The notes beneath the pieces are model-generated. The model made no database searches, was not told the origin of the DNA, and saw nothing but the letters and a program-made list of their open reading frames with translations. A stretch of DNA of 39,656 bases, from the IMG/VR virus record IMGVR_UViG_3300012096_000011, positions 1 through 39,656 of that record; one strand, 5' to 3'. The DNA comes from a virus. Of the stretch, positions 3,524 to 21,736 are shown one piece after another. Both the position numbers and the translations under genes were made by a program. How positions within the stretch are numbered: the first letter of the stretch is position 1; every line of letters begins with the position of its first letter.

Positions 3524-3796
3524 GTGAATCGCCGAGATCTACTCAAGGGATTGCTTGTGGGGCCAGCGATTGGTTTGGCTTTGCCTGTTCACGCGAAGCC
3601 ATTTGAGTTTATCCCTGAGCCCTCGTCTGAGTTGCTTCGTTTTCGAGCCGCAATGGCTAGGGTCAAGGCCGGGCAGACCCAACGATTCTGGAACGAATAT
3701 CTTCCTAGGGTCCTTGCTGCAGAGCAATGCAGGCAAGCAGAGTGGTTGGAGGAATTCTATAGCCCCTGGATGGAGGCCTTGAGCCAGCGGGGATGA
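3524..3796 (+). CDS. Tat-signal protein of unknown function (90 aa)
   Basis: GTG start at 3524, directly after the small terminase stop, with GGAGAGG upstream. The N-terminus MNRRDLLKGLLVGPAIGLAL-PVHAKP is a textbook twin-arginine export signal: an RR-x-LLK motif, a moderately hydrophobic core and an AxA-like cleavage site near residue 25. The ~65-residue remainder is helical and Trp-rich (FWNEYLPRVLAAEQCRQAEW). A phage product fitted for Tat export, lying between the terminase genes, is odd. Function unknown. Confidence 0.65.
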   Translation: MNRRDLLKGLLVGPAIGLALPVHAKPFEFIPEPSSELLRFRAAMARVKAGQTQRFWNEYLPRVLAAEQCRQAEWLEEFYSPWMEALSQRG

Positions 3797-3969: not shown

Positions 3970-5479
3970 CCCCGCCCTCCTTGATTGGCTCGCCTCTTGC
4001 TCGAACGATCCGGTGAAGTTCGTTCTCGAAGCTTTCCCTTGGGGCGAGAACCGGCTAGCAGGGTTTGAAGGACCGGAGGATTGGCAATGGAATGTGCTCG
4101 AACGGATCAAATCTGGCCTCCCAATTGACCAAGCAATCCAGCTTGCGACTGCGTCTGGCCATGGTGTCGGAAAGAGTTGTTTGGTTGCGTGGATCATCCT
4201 TTGGTCCATCTCGACAATGACCGACACTAGAGGAGTGGTAACGGCCAATACCGAAACACAGCTTAAAACTAAGACCTGGGCCGAGCTAGGGAAATGGTAC
4301 AACCTGTTCATCGCGAGGGAGTTGTTTCATCTCTCCGCCACGGCCCTGTTCTCTGTTGATCGAGATCACGAAAGGACTTGGCGCATCGATATGGTCCCTT
4401 GGTCGGAGCGCAACACCGAGGCCTTCGCTGGTCTCCATAACCGTGGCCGAAGGATCCTGGTCCTGTTCGATGAGGCCTCGGCCATTCCCGATATCATCTG
4501 GGAAACCACCGAAGGGGCCTTGACTGATGCCGATACCCAGATCATCTGGGCGGTGTTCGGGAACCCGACCAGAAACACCGGGCGGTTTAGGGCTTGCTTC
4601 GAGCCAGGGAGCTTCTGGCAAACCAAGCGTGTGGATTCGAGAACGATTTCCTTCACCAACAAATCCCAGATCGATCGATGGATCAAGTTCTATGGCCTTG
4701 ACTCCGACTTCGTGAGGATCAGGATCCTCGGGGAGTTCCCCCGGGTTGGCGAGATGGAGTTCTTCTCTGGAACGGATGTAGATGAGGCGATGGTCAGGGA
4801 GGTGGAGCCCTTCGGAGCCTTGGCTCTTGGGGTAGATGTCGCGCGGTTTGGGGCTAACTTCTCCGTGCTATTCCCCCGGCGAGGGAGAGATGCGAGAACG
4901 ATTCCTAGAAGACGCTTTCAAGGCCTTTCAACCGTCGACCTCGCGGACAAGGTGTTTGAGTTCAATCGGGAGATCCGGGCCGATGGGATTCTCGTGGATG
5001 GGGGTGGGGTCGGAGGCGGGGTGGTAGATCAAATCCGCCACCGGCAACTTCATTGCTTTGAGGTTCAGTTCGGGGCCAAAGCCACTGGTCTTGGATACGA
5101 ATCCAATACCCAAGGTGAACGCTACGCCAACAAGAGGGCCGAGATGTATGGATCCCTTCGAGCTTGGCTCAAGGGTGGGGCCCTCCCGCCTGATCCAGAT
5201 CTCAAGAAGCAACTCGCTTCTATCACCTACACACTCAACAACCGGGACGAGATTATTCTAACCTCGAAAGAGGTCATGATGAGGGAGGGCCGGGAGAGCC
5301 CGGACGACATTGACGCGTTGGCATGTACCTTCGCCTATCCGATCGAGGCTAAGGCTTTGAGGTTTGGGGAGCCTTGGATCGCTCATGATGACGTGGTATC
5401 GGAATATGAACCGTATGCTATCTTAACAAAGAATAATATACCCTCGTCGGATTATAGCCCTTTTAGAAGCCTCTCCTAA
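3962..5479 (+). CDS. terL: Terminase large subunit
   Basis: 505 residues from the ATG at 3962 (MSSPALLDWLASC). The ATPase half has Walker A ASGHGVGKSCLVAW (~residues 63-76) and Walker B ILVLFDEASAIPD (~residues 165-178). The RNase H-like nuclease half shows acidic motifs LGVDVARFG (~288), ILVDGGGVGGG (~343) and a final SPDDIDALACTFA (~447-459). It would power DNA translocation into the prohead and cut the concatemer. The last ~20 residues (ILTKNNIPSSDYSPFRSLS) are AT-rich in codons and look different from the body. The gene ends TAATG, with the next gene's ATG inside: a homing endonuclease gene. Confidence 0.93.
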   Translation: MSSPALLDWLASCSNDPVKFVLEAFPWGENRLAGFEGPEDWQWNVLERIKSGLPIDQAIQLATASGHGVGKSCLVAWIILWSISTMTDTRGVVTANTETQLKTKTWAELGKWYNLFIARELFHLSATALFSVDRDHERTWRIDMVPWSERNTEAFAGLHNRGRRILVLFDEASAIPDIIWETTEGALTDADTQIIWAVFGNPTRNTGRFRACFEPGSFWQTKRVDSRTISFTNKSQIDRWIKFYGLDSDFVRIRILGEFPRVGEMEFFSGTDVDEAMVREVEPFGALALGVDVARFGANFSVLFPRRGRDARTIPRRRFQGLSTVDLADKVFEFNREIRADGILVDGGGVGGGVVDQIRHRQLHCFEVQFGAKATGLGYESNTQGERYANKRAEMYGSLRAWLKGGALPPDPDLKKQLASITYTLNNRDEIILTSKEVMMREGRESPDDIDALACTFAYPIEAKALRFGEPWIAHDDVVSEYEPYAILTKNNIPSSDYSPFRSLS

Positions 5480-5868
5480 TGATATCGGATCTAGAAATTG
5501 GTTGGCTTGCAGGAATTTTAGAGGGCGAGGGTTGCTTCCTTATGCGCAGTAGACATAAGAATTCTCAAAGCGTTAATATTGAATCAACTGATGAAGATGT
5601 TATAAATAAGGTAGCATTGATAGTTGAAAGATTAACTGGCAAGTTATATAATGTAGGTTTTCGCGAACCACAAACTGGGTTTCTTAATGCAAAAGAAAGA
5701 TATACCTTGCAAGTAAATGGCGAACCGGCTAGGATAGTTATGCGTACTATTGTAAGGTATATGTGTAGTCGCCGGCGTCAGCGTATTTGGCAATGTCTTA
5801 ATGGCTATAGATCACCAAAGAAACTAAGTCGGGAAGAACTCTTTCAAGCCCTTAAACTCGTTAGTTAG
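5479..5868 (+). CDS. LAGLIDADG homing endonuclease, free-standing
   Basis: 129 residues. WLAGILEGEGCF (~residues 9-20) is a LAGLIDADG motif whose conserved acidic residue (Glu) would bind metal in the nuclease. The protein has a single motif, so it would work as a dimer. The C-terminal segment SRRRQRIWQCLN is shared with the second copy at 20138-20512. Codons are much more AT-rich than the neighbours, a sign of transfer. Its ATG lies inside the TerL stop (TAATG), so it rides on TerL translation. It is not inside an intron or intein as far as I can see. Confidence 0.85.
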   Translation: MISDLEIGWLAGILEGEGCFLMRSRHKNSQSVNIESTDEDVINKVALIVERLTGKLYNVGFREPQTGFLNAKERYTLQVNGEPARIVMRTIVRYMCSRRRQRIWQCLNGYRSPKKLSREELFQALKLVS

Positions 5869-6114: not shown

Positions 6115-6831
6115 ATGAAAAAGATTCTCTTGCTTTCGACCCTGCTTGTGACCCCGGCCATTGGAGCTGATCTCTACACCAAAGCCCCTCCGGCTCCGCT
6201 GGGTTATGGCGACCCATGGAATGGTTTCTACGTCGGCATCAATGGTGGTTATGGCTTCGAACGAGGAGCTGGATCCGGCCAGACCACTAACTTTCTCCAC
6301 AACATTGGGACGGACTTTGCAACCTCGCCGCAGGGGTTCGTTGGCGGTCTCCATGTCGGCTATATGTGGCACCTTCCAGGCTCAGGATTCGTGTTCGGCG
6401 TTGAGGGTGATGGCGATATCGCGACGCTCGATGGAACACAACAGAACCCGGGGTTCATCGGCAACGTCAATTCCAAGAACCGTTGGCTTGCGTCGTTTCG
6501 CGGAAGACTCGGCTACATACTCGTGCCGAATGTTTTGGCCTATGGCACCGGTGGTTATGGGTGGGGAAGTGCTGACTTCACCGTTACAGGGACGGACGGA
6601 AGTCAGGTCAACTTCAAACCAACTCTTGGTGGTGCCGTACTTGGCGGTGGAATTGAGATCGCTCTTACTCCTAGCTTGCTGGCTCGGGTGGAGTATCTTC
6701 ATTACTTCCTAAACGATATCAATGGGAGCTTTAGTGGCAAGTTGATGCCAATTGGGGTGTCGGCTAATATGATCTTTCACGCTGATGACAATGTAAGCCT
6801 CATTCGAGGTGGTCTGAGCTACAAGTTCTAG
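6115..6831 (+). CDS. Outer-membrane beta-barrel protein (Omp25/Omp31-like)
   Basis: 238 residues from MKKILLLSTLLVTPAIGA, a clear Sec signal peptide cleaved near residue 18; an upstream in-frame ATG lacks a ribosome site. The mature protein begins DLYTKAPPAP and continues WNGFYVGINGGYGFERGAGS, the signature of Rhizobiales porin-family barrels. Glycine and aromatic-rich strands follow (GGLHVGYMWHLPGSGFVFGV; ASFRGRLGYILVPNVLAYGT). The protein ends GGLSYKF, with the terminal Phe used by the Bam machinery. It should insert in the host outer membrane. Host genes of this family are common; finding one inside a phage late operon suggests receptor masking or superinfection exclusion (inference). Confidence 0.85.
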   Translation: MKKILLLSTLLVTPAIGADLYTKAPPAPLGYGDPWNGFYVGINGGYGFERGAGSGQTTNFLHNIGTDFATSPQGFVGGLHVGYMWHLPGSGFVFGVEGDGDIATLDGTQQNPGFIGNVNSKNRWLASFRGRLGYILVPNVLAYGTGGYGWGSADFTVTGTDGSQVNFKPTLGGAVLGGGIEIALTPSLLARVEYLHYFLNDINGSFSGKLMPIGVSANMIFHADDNVSLIRGGLSYKF

Positions 6832-8668: not shown

Positions 8669-10453
8669 ATGGCCCTTTCTGAGCAAGACCTCGCCAAAGC
8701 GATGGGATCTCGGATTCCCTCAGCGCAAGACCTTGCCCTTCGTCGCCACTCCGAGAGTCGAATGATCGGCCTTAGAATCAATCGCTATTCGTGGTGGACC
8801 CACGGTAGGGAGCTTGCAGATTTCTTCCTTCCTCGCCGTTATAAGTGGCTGATTACCCCCAATCAAATGGGCCGGGGATCCCCAATCAATCAACATATCC
8901 TCGACTCGACCTCCACGCTTGCGGCCAGGAATCTCGCTGCGGGAATGATGTATGGAATAACCAACCCTACCACCCCATGGTTCCGTTTGAGGTTGGGAAG
9001 GATTGACTCAACCCAGACCAACCCCATTGCCATCTGGTTATTCCAAGTCGAGCAGATGATGATGCAGGTCTTTCAAGAATCCAACTTCTACCAATCCCTT
9101 GCGATTTTCTATTTCGATCTGGTGATCTTCGGTACTGCCTCGATGATCATCTATGAAGACTTCAATCATGTTATCAACTGCATCAACCCTTGCTTCGGCG
9201 AGTACTATTGTGATGTCAACTCTCAACTCAACATGGTGGATGTATTCTATCGTGAGTTCACCTACACCGTGGCCCAAGCCGTTGAGAGGTGGGGAATCGA
9301 GAATGTTTCTCCAAACATTGCCGCCCAATATAAGGAAAGCAAGCGGGGTTCCTCTGCTGGATTGACCCGGGAGATAGTGGTTGCTCATGGAATCGAACCC
9401 AATTTCAACTTCAGAGAGTTCGGGGTTCCATCCCAGTTCAAATATCGCGAGGTCTATTGGGAGTGGGGAGGGTCAGCCTCCCCACAAGGTGGAAGTAGTT
9501 TCTCTCCTGGCTTACTCGACAAAAGGGGGTTTTATGAAAATCCCTGCATTACAGCAAGGTGGGATACTGTGGCTAATGACGCCTATGGTCGATCTCCTGC
9601 CATGGATGCCCTTCCTGATTGTAAACAACTCCAACTCCAAGTTCGTCGCCAAGCCCAAGGTATTGATAAACAAGTTAATCCCCCCCTCCAAGCCGATATC
9701 CAACTTAAGAACCAACCAGCTTCCCTGATCCCTGGTGGGATAACCTACGTCGCTGGGCTAATGAGCTCCTCGAACCCTGGAATGCAATCGATCTACAACC
9801 ACAAAATCGAACTGGGTCCGATGACCGAGAACCTAGAACTGGTTCGTCAGCGGATCAAACAAATATTCTTCAACGATCTCTTTCAAACCATTTCCCAGTA
9901 TCAAACCCGGTCCAATGTTACCGCGGAGGAAGTCAATGCTCGACGAGCCGAATCCCTTATCATGCTTGGGCCAGTCCTTGAGCGATTGCAGCTTGAGCTC
10001 TTGGCTCCAGCAATCGATCGAACTTTTTCCATTATGTCCAGGGCTGGAATTTTGCCCCCCGCTCCAGCTAACATTAGCGGGGCGGAGCTCTCGATTCAAT
10101 ACGTTTCGATGCTCTCCCTAGCACAGCAAGCAGCTAAAACAGCTGGCATTGATAGGCTCTTGCAGATTGCCGGGTCCCTTGCTGGTATCGATCCAGCGGT
10201 AGTGGATAACCTCGACATTGACTACGCCTTGGCTCGCTATTCCAACCTGATGAACAACGATCCCCGATTGATTCGCACTCCTGATCAGGTCGCAAAGATC
10301 AGGACCCAAAGAGCCCAACAGCAGCAACAAGCCCAGGTCGCTCAGCAAGCCGACACTGCCCAGAAGCTAGCCGCAGGTGCTCAGACTCTATCCCAAACGG
10401 ATGTTGGAGGAGGAAAGAACGCAATGAGTGCAATGCTTGAGAGGGCTGCTTGA
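8669..10453 (+). CDS. Portal (head-tail connector) protein
   Basis: 594 residues with the features of the podovirus head-to-tail connecting family: RRYKWLITPNQMGRGSPINQ, HILDSTSTLAARNLAAGMMYG, TNPTTPWFRLRLG, then GRSPAMDALPDCKQLQLQVR and QTRSNVTAEEVNARRAESLI. These match T7/BPP-1-type portals closely. The C-terminus is a Gln/Ala-rich tail (QQQQQAQVAQQADTAQKLAA). It forms the dodecameric ring at the packaging vertex. The next gene starts inside its stop. Confidence 0.9.
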   Translation: MALSEQDLAKAMGSRIPSAQDLALRRHSESRMIGLRINRYSWWTHGRELADFFLPRRYKWLITPNQMGRGSPINQHILDSTSTLAARNLAAGMMYGITNPTTPWFRLRLGRIDSTQTNPIAIWLFQVEQMMMQVFQESNFYQSLAIFYFDLVIFGTASMIIYEDFNHVINCINPCFGEYYCDVNSQLNMVDVFYREFTYTVAQAVERWGIENVSPNIAAQYKESKRGSSAGLTREIVVAHGIEPNFNFREFGVPSQFKYREVYWEWGGSASPQGGSSFSPGLLDKRGFYENPCITARWDTVANDAYGRSPAMDALPDCKQLQLQVRRQAQGIDKQVNPPLQADIQLKNQPASLIPGGITYVAGLMSSSNPGMQSIYNHKIELGPMTENLELVRQRIKQIFFNDLFQTISQYQTRSNVTAEEVNARRAESLIMLGPVLERLQLELLAPAIDRTFSIMSRAGILPPAPANISGAELSIQYVSMLSLAQQAAKTAGIDRLLQIAGSLAGIDPAVVDNLDIDYALARYSNLMNNDPRLIRTPDQVAKIRTQRAQQQQQAQVAQQADTAQKLAAGAQTLSQTDVGGGKNAMSAMLERAA

Positions 10454-11102: not shown

Positions 11103-11694
11103 CCAAAGCGCTCTTAGCGCAGCCCTTGGCGATGGAACCAAGACCGAGGACCAGCTAAACGCTGATAAGGCTAAGGCGCCTGTTGTTCCAGAGAAGTATG
11201 CTGACTTCACCGCCCCAGAAGGCCTAACCCTCGACCCAAAAGCCATCGAAGAGGCTGCGCCAATCTTCAAAGAACTTGGCCTCTCCCAGGAAGGGGCCCA
11301 AAAGCTAGTCGATTTCTACGGCAAACAGGTCGCCAAGCTTAGCAGCGATTCGATTAGCTCTTGGACCAAGACCCGGGAGGATTGGCGCGAAGAACTCAAA
11401 TCCGATCCAACTCTTGGAAAGGAGCTTGCCCCAGACGGCAAAGTACCTGTAACCGTGAACCGTGCTCTGGACGGTTTGCAAAACCCTAAGTTAGTCGCCG
11501 ACTTCAAGGATGCAATGAACACGACCGGCGCTGGGGATAATCCCGCCTTTGTTCGTGTTCTATACGCCTTGGCCAGCAAACTCACAGAGGGAACTTCGTA
11601 CGCACAAGGCGGCCCAACCGGGGCAAAGAATGCTTCGCGATCTGCCGCTGCCGCTGTGTATCCCAACCTACCTTCAAACTCTGGAGATAGCTAA
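11017..11694 (+). CDS. Probable scaffolding protein
   Basis: 225 residues directly upstream of the capsid gene. A disordered Thr/Ser/Gly-rich start (TNGTQTTSGTGTETSGSEQG) is followed by a helical acidic body (APIFKELGLSQEGAQKLVDF) and a polar C-terminus. This composition and position are those of head scaffolds, which guide prohead assembly and leave. I kept the GTG at 11017 because GGGAGA lies 5-6 bases upstream; ATG at 11029 is the alternative. Confidence 0.75.
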   Translation: MPEEMTNGTQTTSGTGTETSGSEQGQKTDQSALSAALGDGTKTEDQLNADKAKAPVVPEKYADFTAPEGLTLDPKAIEEAAPIFKELGLSQEGAQKLVDFYGKQVAKLSSDSISSWTKTREDWREELKSDPTLGKELAPDGKVPVTVNRALDGLQNPKLVADFKDAMNTTGAGDNPAFVRVLYALASKLTEGTSYAQGGPTGAKNASRSAAAAVYPNLPSNSGDS

Positions 11695-12737
11695 TGGCCA
11701 TTATAGGCACAACCGCAATCACCTATGCGGATTGGGCCAAGAGACTTGACGATGGTTATAAGATCGCTACCATCATCGAGCTCTTGTCTCAAACCAATGA
11801 GATCCTTGAAGACATGCTTGTGGTTCAGGGTAACCTTCCCACAGGTCATAAAACTACCGTTCGAACTGGCCTTCCTCAGGCCACTTGGCGGTTGCTTAAC
11901 CAAGGCGTCCCAAACGCTAAATCCACCACTGCTCAGATCGTTGATACCTGTGGGAATCTTGAAGCCTATGCAGTGATCGACAAAGATATCGCCGACCTTA
12001 ACGGCAATACCCAAGAGTTTCGGCTCTCGGAAGTGATGGCTTTTCTTGAGGGGATGAGCCAGCAGGTCGCTTCGACAATGATCTATGGAAATCAAGGGGT
12101 CAACCCAGAACGGTTCACTGGCTTTGCTCCTCGATACCCGACCGTTTCCACCTCTGCCTCCCAGACCGCTAACAACGTTCTCGACGGCCAAGGAACCGCC
12201 TCAACCAACACCTCGATTTGGATCCATGTGTGGGGCGCGGACACTGCCCATGTCACCTTTCCGAAGGGCAAGATCACTGGTCTCCAACACCGGGATATGG
12301 GTGAGTGGCCTGTGCTCGACGCCGCGGGCAACACCTACCAAGCCTATCGAGACCACTTCAAATGGGAGATTGGATACGTTCTTCGGGATTGGCGATATGT
12401 TTCTCGAATCTGTAACATCGACATCACCCAACTAACCGGTGTTAGCGCAGCTAACCTGATCAATCTCTTGGTTCGGGCGCTCTACAAGCTCCCAACCGCT
12501 CCGGCCTCTGCAACCACGATCCAGACCTCTGACACTCCCCAGGTCCGGGCCAACATGGGTCGGACGGTGATCTACTGCAACAGGGTGATTCGGACCTATC
12601 TTGACCTCCAGGCCATGAACAAGACGAACGTCTTGTTGCGGATTGAGGAGTTTGATGGCAAACCTATCACCACGTTTCGTGGGATTCCGATCAGAACTTG
12701 TGACGCGGTGCTCAACAATGAGGCCAGGGTAACCTGA
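11694..12737 (+). CDS. Major capsid protein
   Basis: 347 residues, beginning MAIIGTTAITYADWAKRLDD. Contains EILEDMLVVQGNLPTGHKTT, AYAVIDKDIADLNGNTQEFR, STMIYGNQGVNPERFTGFAP and RGIPIRTCDAVLNNEA, the pattern of the GP7-type HK97-fold capsid proteins of BPP-1-like podoviruses. It starts inside the scaffold stop (TAATG). A ribosome site and the cement gene follow within 25 bp. Confidence 0.88.
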   Translation: MAIIGTTAITYADWAKRLDDGYKIATIIELLSQTNEILEDMLVVQGNLPTGHKTTVRTGLPQATWRLLNQGVPNAKSTTAQIVDTCGNLEAYAVIDKDIADLNGNTQEFRLSEVMAFLEGMSQQVASTMIYGNQGVNPERFTGFAPRYPTVSTSASQTANNVLDGQGTASTNTSIWIHVWGADTAHVTFPKGKITGLQHRDMGEWPVLDAAGNTYQAYRDHFKWEIGYVLRDWRYVSRICNIDITQLTGVSAANLINLLVRALYKLPTAPASATTIQTSDTPQVRANMGRTVIYCNRVIRTYLDLQAMNKTNVLLRIEEFDGKPITTFRGIPIRTCDAVLNNEARVT

Positions 12738-12758: not shown

Positions 12759-13301
12759 ATGATTCTCGATGGCCTTTTGTCCTTCACCAACCCCACCTCC
12801 GGTGATCTAATCACCGCCGCCCAGACCAACTTCCCATTCTCGAATGATATCGATTGGGGAATCTCTGGTCTTCCGGTCTCCTCGACCTCTCCAACCAACC
12901 AGCCCTTCCGAGATATGGGCATCGGCGACGATCCAGCCCTCAAGTTCTTGGTCGAGGTCACCACCGCCTTCGCTGGGGGTACCAGTGTCCAATTGATCCT
13001 TCAAGGGGCTCCCGATAACGGCTCTGGAGGTGAGGGAACCTTTGTAAACTGGTGGACTTCTCCAGTCTACACCACCGCCCAGCTCCTGCTTGGGGTCCGA
13101 CTATTCGACATGGACTTCCCTCGGCCTCCGGCTGGCGTAGCACTTCCACGGTTCTCTCGACTCCTCTACACCTCGGTTGGGACCTTCACCGCTGGAGCGA
13201 TCAAGGCCTTCATCGTGCTGGATCGGTTTGACCAAATCTACAACGCCTTGAACAACTCGATCCTTGGCGGCTACCCCGCTGGGGTTACGATCCCGAACTG
13301 A
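12759..13301 (+). CDS. Bbp16-family capsid cement protein
   Basis: 180 residues immediately after the capsid gene. MILDGLLSFTNPTSGDLITA, the middle VEVTTAFAGGTSVQLILQGA and a beta-rich second half (GVALPRFSRLLYTSVGTFTA) match the Bbp16 group, described as a decoration or cement protein on BPP-1 heads. Good AAGGAG upstream. Confidence 0.75.
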   Translation: MILDGLLSFTNPTSGDLITAAQTNFPFSNDIDWGISGLPVSSTSPTNQPFRDMGIGDDPALKFLVEVTTAFAGGTSVQLILQGAPDNGSGGEGTFVNWWTSPVYTTAQLLLGVRLFDMDFPRPPAGVALPRFSRLLYTSVGTFTAGAIKAFIVLDRFDQIYNALNNSILGGYPAGVTIPN

Positions 13302-13312
13302 GGAGGGAAGCA

Positions 13313-13717
13313 ATGAAGATCAATCGTTGGATTGTTGGCGGCCTATTCTTTGGCCTTCTCTCTGGGCTTGCTCTGGCCCAGGTTAATCGTTCTGTTCAGA
13401 TGTCGCAGGATCCCACTGGATTCATTGCGGCCGATCTAGTTGCTGGCCATCTTCACATTCCGCAAGGGGGTAAGGGCACTCCGGTCCTTTCGGCTTGTGG
13501 GGCTGCTACAGCAACTGGAAACGATGCAGCTTTTACTCTTACTGCTGCTCAGGCAACCTGTACGGCTACCTTTGCCACCGTCTATCCAGCTGCACCAAGG
13601 TGTCTGATATCTGGTGGGCCGACTACTGGTGGATTGGTAGCTTCTTCTACTACAGCGTTGACTATTACTGGTCTAACGGCTGCTAGTGTCTACACTGTCT
13701 TCTGCATTGGTCAGTGA
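13313..13717 (+). CDS. Secreted-type small beta protein (fibre C-terminal module)
   Basis: 134 residues. MKINRWIVGGLFFGLLSGLA-LAQ is a Sec signal peptide cleaved near residue 22. After a short QDPTGFIAADLVAGHLHIPQ segment, residues ~55-134 form a Thr/Ala-rich module: LSACG..ATGNDAAFTLT...TCTATFATVY..APRCLISGG...STTALTITGLTA...FCIGQ. The same module closes the tailspike 16314-17858. It looks like a free-standing copy of a fibre tip domain with an export signal. Function unknown. Confidence 0.65.
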   Translation: MKINRWIVGGLFFGLLSGLALAQVNRSVQMSQDPTGFIAADLVAGHLHIPQGGKGTPVLSACGAATATGNDAAFTLTAAQATCTATFATVYPAAPRCLISGGPTTGGLVASSTTALTITGLTAASVYTVFCIGQ

Positions 13718-13728
13718 GGAGGGAGGAT

Positions 13729-14037
13729 ATGATGATAACTTTCTGGCCTTCTGTGCAGCATATAACTGATAATACGCAAGGGTCTGCAACTATAATCGTA
13801 AGGGACTCGGCGTGGACTGTTGTTATGGGTGCTTCAGCTGATGGCACTCATAATTACTGCATGTTACCTTCTGGTTGTGACGTAGGAGACGTAGTGGAGG
13901 TACACGATGATGGCAGTTCTGGATTTGGTACCAATGTGCTACCTCCTTCTGGAGAAACCATGATCGGTGGTGTGTCTATAACGGCGCCGAGATTGTTTAG
14001 AAAGGTAGGCGCCTCAACTTGGAGCTATCTATCATGA
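13729..14037 (+). CDS. Small beta-rich virion-type protein (103 aa)
   Basis: Start ATG-ATG at 13729 after GGGAGG. Beta-rich (GSATIIVRDSAWTVVMGASA; CDVGDVVEVHDDGSSGFGTN), ending KVGASTWSYLS, as in small decoration or fibre proteins. No signal peptide. Codons are more AT-rich than most neighbours. It overlaps the next start as ATGA. Confidence 0.55.
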   Translation: MMITFWPSVQHITDNTQGSATIIVRDSAWTVVMGASADGTHNYCMLPSGCDVGDVVEVHDDGSSGFGTNVLPPSGETMIGGVSITAPRLFRKVGASTWSYLS

Positions 14038-14531
14038 GTACGATGAAAAGGTATCTGTTGGGGGGAGCTGCGGCTCTCCTCTTTGGGGTAGTTGCTGGCT
14101 TGGCTCAGCAACTAACTTCCCGAACCCTATCCGGAAGCGAGGTCATCCTTGCCCAGGTTGGCATTGGTGGAACTGGCCTCTATATCCCGACAGGCCAGAT
14201 GCGGAATGCTCAAGGGGTGGTTACCACCGCTCTGACCACCGGAACGTTATCGACCCTGACCAACCTGAATGCCGCGACGTTGATCTCGACCGCTGCGTGT
14301 GGTGGAACCCTGACGGTAAATCTTCCTGCGAATCCATGGGATGGGGAGATCTTTGAGTGGTCTAATGGCACAGCCGCTACTGCTTTTACTACTGGTTGTG
14401 TTGTTGCTGCAACTGATGGCGCAACTATTACTGGTGGTGCTGGTGCTAATGCTGTTACCACTCTTGCTGCTGGATCTAGTGCTGAGTGGCGCTATGTTCA
14501 ATCAACTAATACTTGGTATCGAGTGAGGTGA
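14034..14531 (+). CDS. Signal-peptide-bearing decoration/fibre protein
   Basis: 165 residues. MSTMKRYLLGGAAALLFGVV-AGLAQQ is a Sec signal; MKRYLL at 14043 may be the true start. Then SRTLSGSEVILAQVGIGGTG and YIPTGQMRN, a short segment common in phage fibre proteins. The end, WDGEIFEWSNGTAATAFTTG ... AAGSSAEWRYVQSTNTWYRVR, is a receptor-distal fibre-like beta module. The last ~170 bp use GCT/ACT-rich codons unlike the first part. Confidence 0.6.
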   Translation: MSTMKRYLLGGAAALLFGVVAGLAQQLTSRTLSGSEVILAQVGIGGTGLYIPTGQMRNAQGVVTTALTTGTLSTLTNLNAATLISTAACGGTLTVNLPANPWDGEIFEWSNGTAATAFTTGCVVAATDGATITGGAGANAVTTLAAGSSAEWRYVQSTNTWYRVR

Positions 14532-15103
14532 TGAAACTCAAGAACGCTCTCCTAGTTGGGATTGGCCTTGCCCTTTGCTCAGGGGCCCTGGCCCAGCAAT
14601 ACGACCAGCCCAATCCAACCTCTACCTTCAATATGGGAGGGGTGTTCAACACCACCCTTCCAACCATCACCAACGGGAAGACTGGATACGTTCAGATCGA
14701 TTCCGTTGGACGAATCATTACCACACCTGGTTCTGGTACCTTTGCTGCCCAGACCTCGATCACCGCCACCTTCTCAGGCGCAGATACCACCACAGCCACT
14801 GCTACCCTTCCGGCGGCAGCAGGTAAACTAACCTATATTTGTGGCTTCAATATATCTGGCCTTGGTGCAACTGCTGCCACAACTGTCTCTCCAACTATAG
14901 CGACCCTTGCGGGTGGAAATACCTTTACGCTTAGTGGTGGTTATACCTTTGCGACAGGGGCTACTGTTAACAATACTTTGGCCAGCTTTACCTTTCCATT
15001 GTGTGTGGCTGCAAATGCCGTGAACTCAACCATCGTGGTAACTGTTCCTGGTGCAGCAGGCAATACCTCGACCTTCATCAATGCTTGGGGGTACCAGCAA
15101 TGA
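14531..15103 (+). CDS. Signal-peptide-bearing beta-rich protein
   Basis: 190 residues from MKLKNALLVGIGLALCSGAL-AQQ, a clear Sec signal cleaved near residue 22. The start lies inside the previous stop. The rest is Thr/Ala/Gly-rich beta sequence (TSITATFSGADTTTATATLP; TYICGFNISGLGATAATTVS) ending STFINAWGYQQ. Similar to unassigned virion genes of alphaproteobacterial podoviruses. Function unknown. Confidence 0.6.
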   Translation: MKLKNALLVGIGLALCSGALAQQYDQPNPTSTFNMGGVFNTTLPTITNGKTGYVQIDSVGRIITTPGSGTFAAQTSITATFSGADTTTATATLPAAAGKLTYICGFNISGLGATAATTVSPTIATLAGGNTFTLSGGYTFATGATVNNTLASFTFPLCVAANAVNSTIVVTVPGAAGNTSTFINAWGYQQ

Positions 15104-15396
15104 AGTATCTTGCAATAGTCCTCACGCTTGCTATTGGCGGCTTTGCGGTGGCGCAAGACATTCGCCAAACAATTCCACTTCCATTACCAATGACCATGGG
15201 CGGTAGTGGTGGGGTGACTGGAGCGGTAGCCTTATCAAGCACTGTGGGTGCTCTTCCTGCTTGCAATGCGGCCATTAAGGGCCAAATCTACTTCGTAACT
15301 GACGCACTCCTTCCAGCTCTTGGCGCCATCATCGCCGGTGGGGGAGCCGTGAATGCGCTGGTGTTCTGCAATGGTACTAACTGGATTGGAGGCTGA
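15100..15396 (+). CDS. Signal-peptide-bearing small protein (98 aa)
   Basis: MKYLAIVLTLAIGGFAVAQ is a short Sec signal. The C-terminal half, LPACNAAIKGQIYFVTDALL ... GGGAVNALVFCNGTNWIGG, is a module I know from phage decoration or fibre proteins; two Cys may pair. Coupled to both neighbours by overlap or 2-bp spacing. Confidence 0.6.
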   Translation: MKYLAIVLTLAIGGFAVAQDIRQTIPLPLPMTMGGSGGVTGAVALSSTVGALPACNAAIKGQIYFVTDALLPALGAIIAGGGAVNALVFCNGTNWIGG

Positions 15397-15398
15397 CT

Positions 15399-15938
15399 AT
15401 GGCAAGATGGCTCTTAACCGAACCTCCCTACCTCAACGTTCCCGGCACTCGCTGGGAATACAAAGAGACCGACCGAACCTCTGGCAAGCAGAAGTCCATG
15501 ACCTTGCCGGTCCCAGCCTTCCTCGATCCACGGGACGAAGCGGATTGGAACTATTCCCAGAAGTCCGGCCCGTTCCAAGCCGAGCAAGGCTTCACGGTTT
15601 TGGAATCGTTTGGGATTGTGGTTTGCTATGAGGGCAAGGGTCAAGGACGAGATATCATCTTCGTTGGTCCTCCAACCCCGGGGATGCTTCCCTTGGACAC
15701 CGAGGCCAAGAAGATTTCGGATAAAGAATCGCCCAAGTGGATCCATCCGATCGAGGGCCTTCCTGGAACCTTTTCGGACAATCTCCTTGAAAGCTTGCAG
15801 ATGCAAGTTGCAGCAGTGGCATCTAAGGCTTCGGTGCCCAAGGATGACGGAAAGCTCGATAAGCTGATGGAAGCGATGACCATGATGGCCCAAGAGAATG
15901 CGAAGCTGATTGCTGCGCTTTCGACACGGAGAGCGTGA
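15399..15938 (+). CDS. Hypothetical structural protein (179 aa)
   Basis: MARWLLTEPPYLNVPGTRWE starts a compact domain with YKETDRTSGKQKSMTLPVPA and DIIFVGPPTPGMLPLDTEAK; the end is helical (DKLMEAMTMMAQENAKLIAA). No signal peptide. Its position within the decoration and fibre gene run suggests a virion role, but no family is recognised. Confidence 0.6.
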   Translation: MARWLLTEPPYLNVPGTRWEYKETDRTSGKQKSMTLPVPAFLDPRDEADWNYSQKSGPFQAEQGFTVLESFGIVVCYEGKGQGRDIIFVGPPTPGMLPLDTEAKKISDKESPKWIHPIEGLPGTFSDNLLESLQMQVAAVASKASVPKDDGKLDKLMEAMTMMAQENAKLIAALSTRRA

Positions 15939-15988
15939 TGGCCAAAGGAAAACCCAAACCTAAACCCAAACCTCCAAGGCCTTACTAA
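15938..15988 (+). CDS. 16-residue Lys/Pro micro-protein
   Basis: MAKGKPKPKPKPPRPY, linked to the genes on both sides by overlapping stop/start codons (TGATG and TAATG). The perfect coupling and the clean KP repeat argue for a translated peptide, or at least a coupling device for 15988-16317. Confidence 0.5.
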   Translation: MAKGKPKPKPKPPRPY

Positions 15989-16317
15989 TGGCTCTCATAA
16001 CCGTTCTTGTTGGCGCCGCTTCCGCTCAAGTGATCGGCGCTTCGACCCAGAACCTGGTTCGGCGTAAGCTGACCTTCCACAATCCGAACATTGTTGGCCA
16101 ACAGAGCATCTATCTGACCCAAGCTCCGGCTGCCGCAGTCGTGGGGTCTGGGCTGGCGCTCCTTCCAGGGGAAAAGTACGATGTCTTTGGCGACCAATGT
16201 CTCACGGCCTGGAATGGGATTGGCTCCGCTGCGGGGGCCAATGTATCCGTGATTGAGTATCTCTATGCGGCGGGGAATCTTCCCCAGGGTTATCTCTTTA
16301 GCCTTCCGGTGGGATGA
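15988..16317 (+). CDS. Small beta-sandwich virion protein (109 aa)
   Basis: MALITVLVGAASAQVIGAST followed by LTFHNPNIVGQQSIYLTQAP, LLPGEKYDVFGDQCLTAW and ANVSVIEYLYAAG. This resembles small phage proteins with an immunoglobulin-like fold. The N-terminus looks slightly like a signal peptide but lacks positive charge, and in relatives this stretch is part of the fold. Start coupled to the micro-protein; end overlaps the tailspike. Confidence 0.55.
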   Translation: MALITVLVGAASAQVIGASTQNLVRRKLTFHNPNIVGQQSIYLTQAPAAAVVGSGLALLPGEKYDVFGDQCLTAWNGIGSAAGANVSVIEYLYAAGNLPQGYLFSLPVG

Positions 16318-17858
16318 TGAAAAAGCTCCTTCTCGCACTTCTGCTTTCATCGAGTGTGGCGCAAGCCCAGTTTGCCACCACCACCACCACTGCACCGATT
16401 GGAGACAACACTAATCGGATTGCTAGCACTGGATTTGTTAATGGTGGAGGTCTTGGGTTTGGAGTGGTTGGCAATTCCAATCTTGCCCAAATGCCAGCCT
16501 TTACCTTCAAGGGCAACAACACCGCTGTAGGTGCGCCGCCGATTGATCTGACCGTGGCGCAGACCAAGTCGCTGCTTACCGTTTCGGTCTCCGTCACCGA
16601 CTCGGCCTTTGGCGCCAAGTGCGATGGAACGACCGACGACACGACGGCAATTCAAGCCACCATCAATTCGCTGCCGGCCAACGGGGGTATCGTGCTTTTC
16701 CCCGTCGCGAACTGCAAGATTTCGTCAACTCTGACGATCGGAAACGGCACGACTTCGGCAGTTTCTACTCGATCAGGGGTCATCCTCCAGGGTATTGCCA
16801 ACCCCGGAACCGGCTCGGCTGTGTTTCCGTTTACCACGGTCACTGGTCCGAAACTGACATGGGTTGGTGGTGCCTCTCCCATGATCTCCATCAAGGGGCC
16901 ACTGTCCGGATGGGGCATCCAAAACTTGTACCTCGACGGCGCCAGCACGGCGACGCAGTGTATAGCTCCCACTTCCGCACAGAATGGCGATAGTCGAAAC
17001 CTTGTCATTGTCAATTGCCTGCAAGGCATCGGATCAACTTCAAATCCCATTGGGGGCTATACAGGCGTCAATAATGTCGACAGCTGGCAGAATATCTGGA
17101 CCAACACGACCGTCGTTGTTCCTGGAGCAGCGGGAAACTTTGGCATCGTCCTTACGGGAGCCTCGGACGGCACCAGCGACACCGATTACAATGTGTTCGT
17201 TGGAACGACCATCCTCGTTGGCGGAACAAATATGGCGGTTAGCTTTCAGGTCAGCGATGGTAACATATTCAATAATTTGAGGGTAATTAAAAGCGGTGGA
17301 ACACCAGGTGCAATTCTCTATGACTATACTGTTAATTCAGGATTTCCCTCCGGAAATATTATTAACTCAGTAGATACCGGCGCACCTACTCTAACATTTG
17401 TTAATAATGGAACGCCAGGGGCGGGTGCCAAGGCAAATATCGTCAATGGACTCCAAGAGCAGAATGGCTCGACTGCTCCGAGCGTAGTCAATTTGGCGGT
17501 TTATGGAGCGCATAATATCAATCTTTCACAGGGTGGTAATAATCCAAGCACACAGATATCAACCACTAATGGGCATCTTGGCTATTCTGGCACAGCTCCG
17601 ACGCTCACGGCAGGGTGCAATGGCGCCGGTTCGGCTGGCGTGACTGGGACGGACAATGCCGGCCTAATAAATGGACAGACGGCAGCAGCTACGACCTGCA
17701 CGGTGACTTTCGCAAAGACCTACACAACAGCGCCATTTTGCACTGCAAATGGTGTCAATGGTGCAGTGACTTTGTTGAGCACGACAACGACTGCTTTAGT
17801 TATTGTATTTCCTAGCACAGCGGGATGGTTTGGTAGTTTTATCTGTGTGGGTATATAA
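16314..17858 (+). CDS. Beta-helix tailspike with N-terminal signal peptide
   Basis: 514 residues. MMKKLLLALLLSSSVAQAQF is a Sec signal. Residues ~22-95 carry fibre repeats (APIGDNTNRIASTGFVNGG; LAQMPAFTFKGNNTAVGAPP). At ~100 the pectate-lyase-like start FGAKCDGTTDDTTAIQATIN opens a right-handed beta-helix, with ANGGIVLFPVANCKISSTLT. Residues ~425-514 are the same TNDNAG...CTVTFAKTYTTAPFC...FICVG-type module found in 13313-13717. It probably binds or cuts a surface polysaccharide. The DNA from about 17240 on is AT-richer than the front half, suggesting an exchanged tip. A signal peptide on a tailspike is unexpected. Confidence 0.75.
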   Translation: MMKKLLLALLLSSSVAQAQFATTTTTAPIGDNTNRIASTGFVNGGGLGFGVVGNSNLAQMPAFTFKGNNTAVGAPPIDLTVAQTKSLLTVSVSVTDSAFGAKCDGTTDDTTAIQATINSLPANGGIVLFPVANCKISSTLTIGNGTTSAVSTRSGVILQGIANPGTGSAVFPFTTVTGPKLTWVGGASPMISIKGPLSGWGIQNLYLDGASTATQCIAPTSAQNGDSRNLVIVNCLQGIGSTSNPIGGYTGVNNVDSWQNIWTNTTVVVPGAAGNFGIVLTGASDGTSDTDYNVFVGTTILVGGTNMAVSFQVSDGNIFNNLRVIKSGGTPGAILYDYTVNSGFPSGNIINSVDTGAPTLTFVNNGTPGAGAKANIVNGLQEQNGSTAPSVVNLAVYGAHNINLSQGGNNPSTQISTTNGHLGYSGTAPTLTAGCNGAGSAGVTGTDNAGLINGQTAAATTCTVTFAKTYTTAPFCTANGVNGAVTLLSTTTTALVIVFPSTAGWFGSFICVGI

Positions 17859-17863
17859 AATTT

Positions 17864-19756
17864 ATGACCGTCTCCACTTCTCTCAATAAAATCATCTATC
17901 AGGGGAACGGCGCCACAACCGTATTCCCGTTCACCTTCCCGGGCGTAGCCGCAGCTGATATTCAAGTATTCTTCACCGATGTCCTGGGCAACGTCACCCT
18001 TCTAGCTGCTAGCTCCTATACCCTTTCGTTGAATGCTCCAACAGGCACCAACCCCACAGGTGCCGGGGGATCGGTCACCTACAACCCGCTAGGCGTACCG
18101 ATCCCCATCAACACCAGCCTGACTATCCTTCGAACCCTCCCGTTGGTGCAAAGCACTTCCCTAGCAAATCAGGGAACGCTTTACCAACCAGTGGAAGAGG
18201 CTGCGCTCGACTACCTAATGATGACCGTTCAGCAAACCGCGGAGATTGGGAATCGAGAACTAACTGTTGCGGTGTCCGACCCACCCCCGAATCCGCTCCC
18301 TGCGGTAGCTGCTAGGGCTAACCAGGTCCTTGGCTTCGATGCCTCTGGCAATCCGATAGCGGTCTCATCCCTTCCAGCTGGAACCGTGTCCTCTGCGATG
18401 CAACCGGTGGTCAATGCCGCTACCCTTGCTGCTGGTCGAAGCGCCTTTGGCCTTGGTTCGATCGCAACGGAGACCATTGGCCTTGGGCTTCAAGATAATG
18501 GCGCAAATGCGATTCAGACATTCTTCAATACGGTTGCGGATTCAACCAACCAAACCGTAACTTCATCGTTTCACCAAAACATCCGTGCAGCAACAGGAGC
18601 CCTCAACTATACCCTTCCCAAAGCCTCAACTCTGTTCAATGGTTTTGGCTTTTGGGTATATGCCTTAACTGGCGCAATAACCTTTATCATTAACGCTGCC
18701 GACGCTTTCTCTGGCGCAGGCACTGGCGCTTCTCTAGTTATTCCGCCTGGATCAAGAGTCTTCGTCTCCACCGATGCCGCTGGATCGGGTACTTGGTACA
18801 TTAGGCCAAGTGCTCTTCAAGGGTTTAATGCCCCACTTAATCTCCAGCTGAATGCTTCTGCCGGTAGCGGCAGTGCTTTGATTAATATTAAGGACGCGAA
18901 TGGCAATGATCCTTCTCCTGCTTCTCCTATAACTGTTGTCCATTCCTTCAATGGTAATGCGACTCCTCGTGCTATAACAGTTCCGTTATCATTGACAATA
19001 CCTAGTGGAGCTAGCCTTGGCACTGTTAGTGGTCAGGCTTTCAGAATTTGGGTTGGGCTTTTCGACAATGCTGGAACGCCTGTTCTTGGTGTTTATAACT
19101 CTCTTTCAGGAACCAATGTTCAGTCTTGGAATGAGGCCGCCCAGTCGCCTGGAGTAGCTATCTCAGCTGGGGCAACCCAAGCCCAGACTTGGTACACTAA
19201 TGGTTCGATTGCACCACCTAAGAGCTTTAGGATCCTTGGTTATTTTGAAGGTGTTCAGGGTGGTGGGGCTTGGACTACAGGTTTATCACTAGTGCAGCTC
19301 TTTGGGCCTGGGATTAAGCGGCCGGGGGATACGGTTCAGGAAGCTCCTACTAAGATCTCTGCTTCTGGTTCGACAACCAGCTCGACGTTTGTGGCTTTGC
19401 CTAACCAAACTGCGATTATTGGTATCCAATCGGCAGCTAATCTAATTCGGGTCGAGGCTTGTGGCCAAGTGTCTTCTGGTGGTAGCATTCCATCAAACCA
19501 AACTGGGCAGCTGTCTCTATCTCGTGGAACGGTTGCCAACGCAAACCTATTTGGGGATGTCGGTGGTCTATTTGGCGGAATCACTGGCGTTGCATCTGGG
19601 GCCTATACCTTCGGTTGCACTGGAGCACTGTTCGGTTATGACCTTCCTAATCAAGTCGGGAACGTGACCTATGCGGTGCAAGGGAATATCACTGGGGGCA
19701 ACACTCTTACCTTTGGTCCTAATGCTCAAATGCTTGCAAGAGAGATTATGGTTTAA
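17864..19756 (+). CDS. T7-type tail fibre protein
   Basis: 630 residues. The N-terminal ~130 residues (KIIYQGNGATTVFPFTFPGV; YQPVEEAALDYLMMTVQQTA) are the particle-binding domain of T7 gp17-like fibres, which attaches to the tail. The middle (LGFDASGNPIAVSSLPAGT) is a shaft linker and the C-terminal 450 residues are beta-rich, Gly/Ser/Thr-rich receptor-binding sequence. It lies beside the tailspike, so the phage may carry two adhesins. Confidence 0.85.
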   Translation: MTVSTSLNKIIYQGNGATTVFPFTFPGVAAADIQVFFTDVLGNVTLLAASSYTLSLNAPTGTNPTGAGGSVTYNPLGVPIPINTSLTILRTLPLVQSTSLANQGTLYQPVEEAALDYLMMTVQQTAEIGNRELTVAVSDPPPNPLPAVAARANQVLGFDASGNPIAVSSLPAGTVSSAMQPVVNAATLAAGRSAFGLGSIATETIGLGLQDNGANAIQTFFNTVADSTNQTVTSSFHQNIRAATGALNYTLPKASTLFNGFGFWVYALTGAITFIINAADAFSGAGTGASLVIPPGSRVFVSTDAAGSGTWYIRPSALQGFNAPLNLQLNASAGSGSALINIKDANGNDPSPASPITVVHSFNGNATPRAITVPLSLTIPSGASLGTVSGQAFRIWVGLFDNAGTPVLGVYNSLSGTNVQSWNEAAQSPGVAISAGATQAQTWYTNGSIAPPKSFRILGYFEGVQGGGAWTTGLSLVQLFGPGIKRPGDTVQEAPTKISASGSTTSSTFVALPNQTAIIGIQSAANLIRVEACGQVSSGGSIPSNQTGQLSLSRGTVANANLFGDVGGLFGGITGVASGAYTFGCTGALFGYDLPNQVGNVTYAVQGNITGGNTLTFGPNAQMLAREIMV

Positions 19757-20145
19757 TGACCGAAGAATTCGAAAAGCCTCTACATCCCGACTCCGTCTAC
19801 ATCCGCCGGTGTTCGGAGGAGCTAACCTCGATTCGTCAAATGCTCTCTAAGGTTATCAACTACATGGTAGATGCTGAGTCTGAGGTCCCGGAGAAGATGC
19901 GGAGGTTCATTATGTATTTTCACGACGTGCATGATATTGTGAATGTGTACGAGGAGCGGGGCCACCAGCCACCTGAGCATATCAAAAGGGAAATGGAGCG
20001 TTGTGATGATCGCTACCGACAGTTGTTGGCTCAGGCTCACACTGATGGAGGTGTCTTCGAAAAAGTTCGTCGAGAAATGGCAAGCGACCCAGAAAACCGT
20101 TGGGACCATACTCGACTACTAGGAAAGACTTCTAAGCGTGAGTAA
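19756..20145 (+). CDS. Conserved-type small phage protein (129 aa)
   Basis: Starts inside the fibre stop (TAATG). Helical, with VPEKMRRFIMYFHDVHDIVN, ERGHQPPEHIKREMERCDDR, YRQLLAQAHTDGGVFEKVRR and MASDPENRWDHTR. The last motif set resembles a family I recall from podoviruses of alphaproteobacteria, located near fibre genes; function unknown. Its 3' end overlaps a LAGLIDADG gene by 8 bp. Confidence 0.65.
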   Translation: MTEEFEKPLHPDSVYIRRCSEELTSIRQMLSKVINYMVDAESEVPEKMRRFIMYFHDVHDIVNVYEERGHQPPEHIKREMERCDDRYRQLLAQAHTDGGVFEKVRREMASDPENRWDHTRLLGKTSKRE

Positions 20146-20512
20146 TTTATCTGATTTTGAATTGGGTTGGCTTGTAGGTATCCTTGAAGGAGAAGGTCAT
20201 TTTGGCTTTTACACAAGCCAAGTAGTAGAAGTCAATATGACTGATGAGGATACTCTTTATAAGATAGCTTCCATTTACGAGAGAATTCTGGGAGTTCCAA
20301 TAACTGTTTTGTCCATACCCAAAAAGAGTGGTCAAGAGGTTTTCTCCGTAAGAGTTTATGGAGAACGCGCAAGAACTATCATGCACCTAGTTGTGACTCA
20401 TATGAGTTATAGAAGGCGCCAGAAAATCTGGCAATGTCTTAATAGCTTTAGGCCAGAGAAGGTTAATGTAGTTGATCTTATGAAGACGCTAAAGAAAGGA
20501 GAATCCAAATGA
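20138..20512 (+). CDS. Second LAGLIDADG homing endonuclease
   Basis: 124 residues from GTG at 20138. WLVGILEGEGHF (~residues 10-21) is the LAGLIDADG motif, and YRRRQKIWQCLN near ~95-106 repeats the C-terminal signature of the 5479-5868 enzyme, so the two are paralogues. AT-rich codons contrast with the flanks. It is inserted between two structural-region genes without breaking either and overlaps the next ATG by 4 bp. Confidence 0.85.
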   Translation: MSNLSDFELGWLVGILEGEGHFGFYTSQVVEVNMTDEDTLYKIASIYERILGVPITVLSIPKKSGQEVFSVRVYGERARTIMHLVVTHMSYRRRQKIWQCLNSFRPEKVNVVDLMKTLKKGESK

Positions 20513-20781
20513 CCAAGATCATGCTTCGCCAAGGCCATGCTGATCGAAACGTCCAAGAGGGATTTCATCGAGAGCCTCGGCCTTATGCAGTGAACCAGAA
20601 CTTTCCATCGCAGCTTGGAACTGCGATTGATCCTAAAGCGGTTGAGCGGTTTCGCCAAGGGGAAGGCTTTCGAGCTCCAATCGGCCCAACCGACGGCCTT
20701 GATCAAGGCCCCGGGGCCAATCGAGATGGTGGAAAGCCAGGTTCTCCGATCAGGAAATCCGGAGGACAAGGAACCTACTAA
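20509..20781 (+). CDS. Small Gly/Arg-rich protein (90 aa)
   Basis: MTKIMLRQGHADRNVQEGFH... ending GGKPGSPIRKSGGQGTY, preceded by AAAGGAGA. Low-complexity, probably flexible. First of a run of five short polar proteins before the tail-tube genes. No family recognised. Confidence 0.55.
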   Translation: MTKIMLRQGHADRNVQEGFHREPRPYAVNQNFPSQLGTAIDPKAVERFRQGEGFRAPIGPTDGLDQGPGANRDGGKPGSPIRKSGGQGTY

Positions 20782-21032
20782 TGGCTACTCCCGGGGCTGT
20801 GCCAAAGAATACTCCGCTAGGTATGATCCAGTCTGGTGGTAACCCCGGGTTTGGGGGTGGATCTTTAGCCATAATGCAAGAGCTGTCTGGATTTGCTCCT
20901 GGGGGAGAGAAGGGGTTTGAGCAAGGCTGGGCTAACGTTCCCCAATCAACACGATCAGCATTTATGGGAGGTCAAGACACGATTCTTGGTAGAAGGCCAA
21001 ATCGTCCACAGAAGACCCTCTTGGGTCAATAG
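20781..21032 (+). CDS. Small Gly-rich phage protein ending KTLLGQ
   Basis: 83 residues; ATG inside the previous stop. Ends MGGQDTILGRRPNRPQKTLLGQ, the same TILG...KTLLGQ signature as 7174-7371 14 kb upstream, so the phage keeps two members. The N-terminal parts are unrelated. Function unknown; a short conserved terminal motif suggests binding to a larger partner. Confidence 0.65.
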   Translation: MATPGAVPKNTPLGMIQSGGNPGFGGGSLAIMQELSGFAPGGEKGFEQGWANVPQSTRSAFMGGQDTILGRRPNRPQKTLLGQ

Positions 21033-21044
21033 AAGGAGAATACT

Positions 21045-21185
21045 ATGGACTGGAATCATGTACTAACACTCTTGCTAGTCATCGAAAAGGCCACTGGTCA
21101 TCCCAGGCTTAGGCCATTGGTCGACGCGGCTGCGGCTGAGCTAGAGGCGATGGATCCGACGGCGAAGCACGAGGAGGAAGAGTAA
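21045..21185 (+). CDS. Small hypothetical protein (46 aa)
   Basis: MDWNHVLTLLLVIEKATGHP... ending AMDPTAKHEEEE, after AGAAGGAGA and ending TAATG into the next gene. An amphipathic helix followed by an acidic tail. Function unknown. Confidence 0.6.
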   Translation: MDWNHVLTLLLVIEKATGHPRLRPLVDAAAAELEAMDPTAKHEEEE

Positions 21186-21457
21186 TGGCAAAGGATATCC
21201 TCTCTAGCTATGGCCCTGAGCGAAGCTCTGGTGGTGGTGGTGATGCTGATGGAGGGGTTGATATGGACGATAAGGTCGATGTGAATAACTATCGCTCGCC
21301 TTGTGGGCCTAGGAATATCGACGATCCAAAGTCTCCCAGCATCCATGGGAAGAACTTCGACTATTGCGGTAGCCAAGGGCAAGCTTCGCTTCGCTCTCAG
21401 TCCTCTGGCTCACCTGGGCTTGGGGGAATGGTCAAGTCTGTACAAGGGAAACATTAA
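21185..21457 (+). CDS. Small Gly-rich 'GPER' protein A (90 aa)
   Basis: MAKDILSSYGPERSSGGGGD... a flexible Gly/Asp-rich protein with SPCGPRNIDDPKSP and LGGMVKSVQGKH at the end. The N-terminus (M-x-KD-[IF]L-x-x-[YF]GPER) is shared with the next gene, so they are tandem duplicates that have diverged. Confidence 0.55.
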   Translation: MAKDILSSYGPERSSGGGGDADGGVDMDDKVDVNNYRSPCGPRNIDDPKSPSIHGKNFDYCGSQGQASLRSQSSGSPGLGGMVKSVQGKH

Positions 21458-21472
21458 GGCGAGGAGGCACTA

Positions 21473-21736
21473 ATGAGTAAAGATTTTCTTCGCGAGTTTG
21501 GTCCTGAGCGCCGAATAGACCAAGGCCCTTCTGGGGGAGGAGACCCGGGGCGAAGGGATGTGTTTGGGTATGCTCCACCGGTGGGACCGATTGGGGTTAT
21601 GGACACTTCGCCGGTTGGCTTGGGCGGAAAGAACCTTGGCAATCGCGGCTCCCAGGAATCTCGAAATGTGTTCGGCGATGGCGCTGGTGGGATGGCTAGC
21701 AATGGCCATCGCTGCGTGGTTCAAGGTCGATACTAA
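21473..21736 (+). CDS. Small Gly-rich 'GPER' protein B (87 aa)
   Basis: MSKDFLREFGPERRIDQGPS... shares the start pattern of 21185-21457; then Gly/Pro-rich to VFGDGAGGMASNGHRCVVQG. Preceded by GCGAGGAGG. Ends TAATG into the tail-tube gene. Probably disordered; unknown role. Confidence 0.55.
   Translation: MSKDFLREFGPERRIDQGPSGGGDPGRRDVFGYAPPVGPIGVMDTSPVGLGGKNLGNRGSQESRNVFGDGAGGMASNGHRCVVQGRY

Follow-up and report, generated by a model that had tools for sequence, protein, structure and literature searches.

Fibre-like proteins with Sec signals in a soil podovirus clade: host-recognition parts probably completed outside the usual particle-building compartment

The window, that is, the whole stretch of DNA that was analysed, is a 39.7-kb virus record, by gene content a BPP-1/epsilon15-like podovirus. 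The order typical of that group is present, with a portal gene (8669-10453), a phrog_212 capsid gene (11694-12737) and a Bbp16-like cement gene (12759-13301). A block of genes carrying signal peptides lies after the cement gene and before the tail genes, and is found again across a clade of soil podoviruses. The features are as follows, and genes are named below by their first position.

12759-13301, plus strand: Bbp16-like cement protein (PF21190, 7e-7), no signal; left border of the block
13313-13717, plus strand: short fibre-like protein, 134 aa, predicted Sec-exported; signal 13313-13378, Sec score 8.9
14034-14531, plus strand: protein of predicted spike/connector fold, 165 aa, predicted Sec-exported; signal 14034-14105, Sec score 8.2
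14531-15103, plus strand: beta-rich protein, 190 aa, predicted Sec-exported; signal 14531-14593, Sec score 9.4
15100-15396, plus strand: small protein, 98 aa, predicted Sec-exported; signal 15100-15153, Sec score 9.25
15399-15938, plus strand: conserved MARW gene, no signal; right border of the block in many relatives
16314-17858, plus strand: tailspike-like protein, 514 aa, predicted Sec-exported; signal 16314-16367, Sec score 9.5
17864-19756, plus strand: tail fibre, 630 aa, no signal; phrog_1640 (E=4e-21) over residues 1-125

The initial annotation spoke of five exported proteins in a row. The five signal genes are real, but the row is interrupted: signal-less gene 13726-14037 separates 13313 from 14034, and two more, 15399-15938 and 15988-16317, precede 16314. 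Gene 15988 does not qualify as a sixth exported gene, as it scores 5.35 and its 'ASAQ' lies inside a domain that is signal-less in relatives.

All five genes begin with a canonical Sec signal, made of a positive N-region, a hydrophobic core and small residues at -3/-1, and ending in x-x-A before Q. The predicted N-termini, each followed by Q, are MKINRWIVGGLFFGLLSGLALA (13313), MSTMKRYLLGGAAALLFGVVAGLA (14034), MKLKNALLVGIGLALCSGALA (14531), MKYLAIVLTLAIGGFAVA (15100) and MMKKLLLALLLSSSVAQA (16314). Our Sec score is a home-made, rule-based one, calibrated on 13 positives (E. coli signal peptides) and 518 negatives. The five genes score 8.2 to 9.5, compared with 6.6 to 10.2 for the E. coli peptides; four are within the top five of the 211 ORFs of the window, and 14034 stands at 8.2. 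Among the core families (portal, terminase, scaffold, capsid, cement and tail tubes), only 2 of 518 genes pass, both of them Tat-like capsid fragments, and the score is passed by 63 of 154 genes lying between the cement and tail-tube genes versus 2 of 238 elsewhere. Taken alone, the score does not tell a cleaved signal from a transmembrane anchor, as E. coli TolA reaches 8.0; anchors are set aside below because of the cysteine and family evidence. The Sec signals with A-Q cleavage first proposed for all five genes are therefore, on sequence grounds, genuine, and we infer that they are cleaved in vivo. In two loci (L037, 2345-2626; L038, 7596-7877), the capsid gene call is a short fragment whose N-terminus is Tat-like (MNRRGFITGFASFLAAPAIVR).

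The signals are kept in relatives, as the initial annotation had proposed to check: across three families of the block, 144 of 146 distinct members carry one (27/27 in the 13313 family, 65/66 in the 14034 family and 52/53 in the third), counts that leave out three apparently signal-less 13313 homologues (L128, L133 and L138) whose gene starts were not traced. The cleavage site x-x-[AGS] before Q is found in 136 of the 144. Mean identity is 0.37 in the signal versus 0.50 in the next 35 residues for the first family, 0.34 versus 0.53 for the second and 0.35 versus 0.33 for the third; in two families the signal is less conserved than what follows it, and in the third it is about equally so. Of 80 viral contigs with related portals, most that span the region have 1 to 9 signal genes right after the cement gene, and the MARW gene family (cluster 8) is present in 25 loci. 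In the other portal-family relatives that were scanned, those in Burkholderia, Herbaspirillum, Rahnella and Magnetospirillum, no run of signal genes follows the cement gene; the Rahnella locus, L090, has the MARW gene immediately after the cement gene. Among 50,697 phage records, there was no match to the window region at the near-DNA level, nor to proteins 13313, 14034 and 16314. The 385 genomes of the class around an Azospirillum MAG gave one weak match to the 13313 family and one match to the L144 fibre.

Disulfides form in the periplasm, and exported proteins therefore tend to have even numbers of cysteines. Over both locus sets, mature signal-bearing proteins with even and odd numbers were 104 and 7, against 38 and 40 for composition-matched, signal-less fibre-like genes. 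The even to odd ratio was 51:2 in the first set (all other genes 127:144; matched fibre-like signal-less genes 21:17; Fisher p 2e-6 relative to the matched genes, an optimistic value since members are related), and 53:5 in the second (others 99:101; matched signal-less genes 17:23). Cysteines also come and go in pairs. For two alignment columns of the 14034 family, 36 of 54 members have both cysteines, 18 neither and none a single one; for a second pair the figures are 22 both, 31 neither and 1 single, and two members of the 13313 family have lost both cysteines of one pair. The signal-bearing proteins thus carry the paired cysteines expected of an oxidising compartment. Parity and paired gain or loss are tests independent of the signal, and argue that export is real: from sequence data, export of the block proteins appears well supported.

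What kind of proteins are these? Since Foldseek found nothing in the PDB at E <= 0.001 with either model, what is said of the folds of 13313 and 14034 relies on ranked matches and VIA-align Z. For mature 14034, the AlphaFold model (pLDDT 85) is closest to CBA120 TSP4 (Z 9.5), the KP1-variant baseplate protein (9.0) and the Solidus tailspike (8.4), followed by T4 gp9 (8.1), T4 baseplate chain 5iv5_AC (8.0) and the Pa223 capsid spike (8.0), which places its predicted fold near T4 gp9/gp10 among others. Mature 13313 (pLDDT 78.5), which has a C-terminal beta domain with 4 cysteines, has as nearest folds discoidin II, the Pam1 tailspike, K64-1 depolymerase, AP22 gp53 and the R-pyocin fibre (Z 5.5 to 6.6), and the Sf6 tailspike at Z 4.8. 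Its predicted fold is thus near the Pam1 tailspike receptor-binding domain, the R-pyocin fibre and H-type lectins, at Z values (4.8 to 6.6) at which similar arrangements may often occur, and this evidence is weaker than that for 14034. Protein 14531 has 2 cysteines in its mature part and belongs to a three-member cluster in which all carry signals; 15100, also with 2 mature cysteines, has a signal-bearing counterpart in locus L003. Protein 16314 combines an N-terminal motif, GDNTNRIASTGFV, common to six other signal-bearing spikes, with a pectate-lyase-like middle (PF12708 weak and under the cut-off; 7chu, E=2e-7) and a C-terminal 4-cysteine domain like that of 13313; of 21 other viral contigs with relatives, 15 have a signal. 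Among signal-bearing homologues there are matches to the PF07484 tail collar (1.4e-14) and, in PHROG, to tail fibre or tailspike families. The view that the block encodes fibre- or virion-type proteins is upheld by these matches and by the tailspike-, baseplate-, pyocin-fibre- and capsid-spike-like predicted folds.

A conserved N-terminal attachment segment followed by a variable C-terminus was found. The 14034 family, whose mature N-terminus has the motif LSGSE, shows 0.53 identity over the first 35 mature residues and 0.35 over the rest. Protein 13313, compared with L003, retains its signal and the conserved mature N-terminus QVNRSVQMSQDPTG, and the remainder is swapped after 13411, which by analogy would resemble exchangeable receptor-binding domains. 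The 16314 motif is a further instance. The pattern is absent in the cluster-12 family (0.33 versus 0.39).

The reading that we favour, with a probability of about 0.6, is that these are fibre and spike proteins which are exported through Sec, cleaved before Gln, oxidised in the periplasm and docked on the particle at lysis, where they serve in receptor binding with exchanged C-termini. Virion-type fibre and spike proteins would be synthesised late and exported by the host Sec machinery; cleavage before the conserved Gln and disulfide formation in the periplasm would follow, and the proteins would dock on progeny heads or tails at lysis, when the inner membrane gives way. Docking would use the conserved segment that directly follows the signal, and the exported proteins would act in receptor binding, their C-terminal domains being exchangeable. 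The steps up to disulfides are supported by the sequence signatures, while we infer docking at lysis and receptor binding. Against this reading stand the signal-less fibre 17864, which could be the main receptor-binding protein of the window, and the shortest proteins (98 to 165 aa), which may instead be decorations or soluble lectins.

In the main rival reading, the exported, disulfide-bonded receptor-binding domains act off the particle. They may mask or degrade the receptors of the dying cell and of its debris, or serve as soluble decoys, which would keep progeny from being trapped or block rival phages. Such a role would fit the well supported export, the lectin/tailspike-like predicted fold of the 13313 C-terminus, a domain type common to spike 16314, and the separate signal-less fibre retained in the window; the lipoprotein Llp of phage T5 is a precedent for off-particle masking or decoy action. 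However, a signal-less fibre of the 17864 type is found in 4 of 17 clade records and lacking in 13. A near-complete 50-kb relative, G389, which has terminase, portal, capsid, tail-tube and replication genes, carries a Sec or Tat signal on every recognisable fibre gene, its sole large one (535 aa) being a tail-collar protein with a Sec signal. It has no recognisable signal-less fibre left to act as receptor-binding protein; the receptor-binding protein itself is therefore apparently exported, which points, for G389-like relatives, to signals on the phage's own receptor-binding apparatus rather than on a side product. Moreover, known attachment modules lie directly behind signals, and decoys would not need them: the tail-fibre N-terminal module LLPNG.Q.F.D..G.PL.GG is preceded by a signal in L243, L244 and L246 (scores 9.2, 7.0 and 7.4), and in Pseudomonas phage PAE2 the same module directly follows Met, without a signal. 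A soluble masking or decoy function is possible, though we hold it to be doubtful.

Alternatively, the proteins may remain on the infected cell, as adhesins or in biofilm formation or superinfection exclusion, perhaps together with an Omp25-like porin. A signal-bearing porin gene (6115-6831) is indeed part of this genome, and some records of the clade have it too, but it was matched in only 4 of 21 records, whereas the fibre block is general; the block proteins have no lipid or outer-membrane anchor, and their genes are located in the late virion operon, so that we regard this role as unlikely. Finally, the initial annotation had also considered that the signals might be uncleaved anchors used in assembly. 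The proteins would then never reach the periplasm, a scenario which the score cannot tell from cleaved signals but which the conserved cleavage site, the signals more variable than the following residues in two of three families, and the even, covarying cysteines of the mature part make very unlikely.

The docking reading may be set against known systems. Tailed-phage fibres and tailspikes (PF07484, pectate-lyase tailspikes, CBA120 TSP4, Pam1, Sf6) share with the block proteins the modular N-terminal attachment and exchangeable C-terminal beta domain, and folds and families match; the block proteins differ by their Sec or Tat signals and disulfides, whereas known tail fibres and tailspikes, to our knowledge, assemble in the cytoplasm without a signal. 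The pIII protein of inoviruses is a receptor-binding virion protein with a Sec signal and disulfides, a combination that the block proteins would share if their presumed role is correct. However, inoviruses assemble at the membrane and are extruded without lysis, while the present virus, a podovirus, presumably leaves the cell by lysis, and its proteins are unrelated to pIII. BPP-1/epsilon15-like podoviruses have in common with the window the portal (37 to 38% identity), the phrog_212 capsid and the Bbp16-like cement protein. Two cultured phages encode fibre-type proteins with Sec signals and even cysteine numbers. Bradyrhizobium phage ppBdUSDA122-1 (OP596612.1) has two signal genes right after its large tail protein (scores 9.5 and 9.0, with 6 and 18 cysteines), and Acetobacter phage phiAX1 has PhiAX1_440 (Sec score 9.45, 4 mature cysteines). 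The Bradyrhizobium phage fibres have the accessions WAX24264.1 and WAX24263.1. The virion modules of both phages are not BPP-1-like, and each carries one or two of these genes, under the label 'hypothetical' or 'tail fiber protein'; being cultured, they make the question testable now. Phage endolysins exported by Sec are known, namely fOg44 Lys44 and the SAR endolysins (PMC6116005); these are likewise late phage proteins using the host Sec, but they are lysis enzymes, not virion-type fibres. A signal-bearing esterase resembling tail-associated hydrolases was interpreted as a lysis factor (PMC10975493). Our searches of open-access literature found no description of Sec-exported fibres of tailed phages; the cultured examples sit in public records without comment.

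Tailed phages are held to build their entire particles in the cytoplasm. An uncultured group of soil phages probably completes its host-recognition parts outside this compartment, and a clade that secretes and oxidises its fibres first would, if confirmed, be an exception to cytoplasmic particle assembly. This would explain why many soil-virus fibre genes resemble secreted bacterial proteins. Receptor-binding domains would be stabilised by disulfides, giving soil phages hardened spikes, and late particles could take up the fibres of any co-infecting phage, which raises the practical question of fibre exchange between particles after lysis. Whether such a route is widespread among tailed phages, with receptor-binding fibres and spikes passing through Sec or Tat, undergoing oxidation and folding in the periplasm, and being mounted on particles only at or after lysis, is to our mind an even bet.

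Some fibre-like genes of the same block have Tat-type instead of Sec signals (L131, 9867-10733; L118, 7894; L225, 7713-8576 and 10504-11517). Unlike the Sec ones, those counted, in L118 and L131, have odd cysteine numbers (5 and 7). In the window, a small plus-strand gene between the terminase genes (3524-3796) has a Tat-type signal, MNRRDLLKGLLVGPAIGLALPVHA, and a 1698-aa internal virion-type protein (28332-33428, plus strand) has an internal Tat-like motif, SRRSFLKGAAAAGAAAALPKG.

The porin gene, on the plus strand between terminase and portal, encodes an Omp25-type outer-membrane barrel (PF13505) with its own signal; it is also found in Agrobacterium phage Rivra. Its plasmid homologues are mainly from Bradyrhizobium and Rhizobium, a hint of a Rhizobiales host. 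Two related small plus-strand genes (5479-5868 and 20138-20512) share GWLxGILEGEG and are probably homing endonucleases of the LAGLIDADG type. Ahead of tail-tube gene A, tandem short genes (20781-21736, plus strand) have similar starts, MAKDILSSYGPERS and MSKDFLREFGPERR, and are apparent paralogues.
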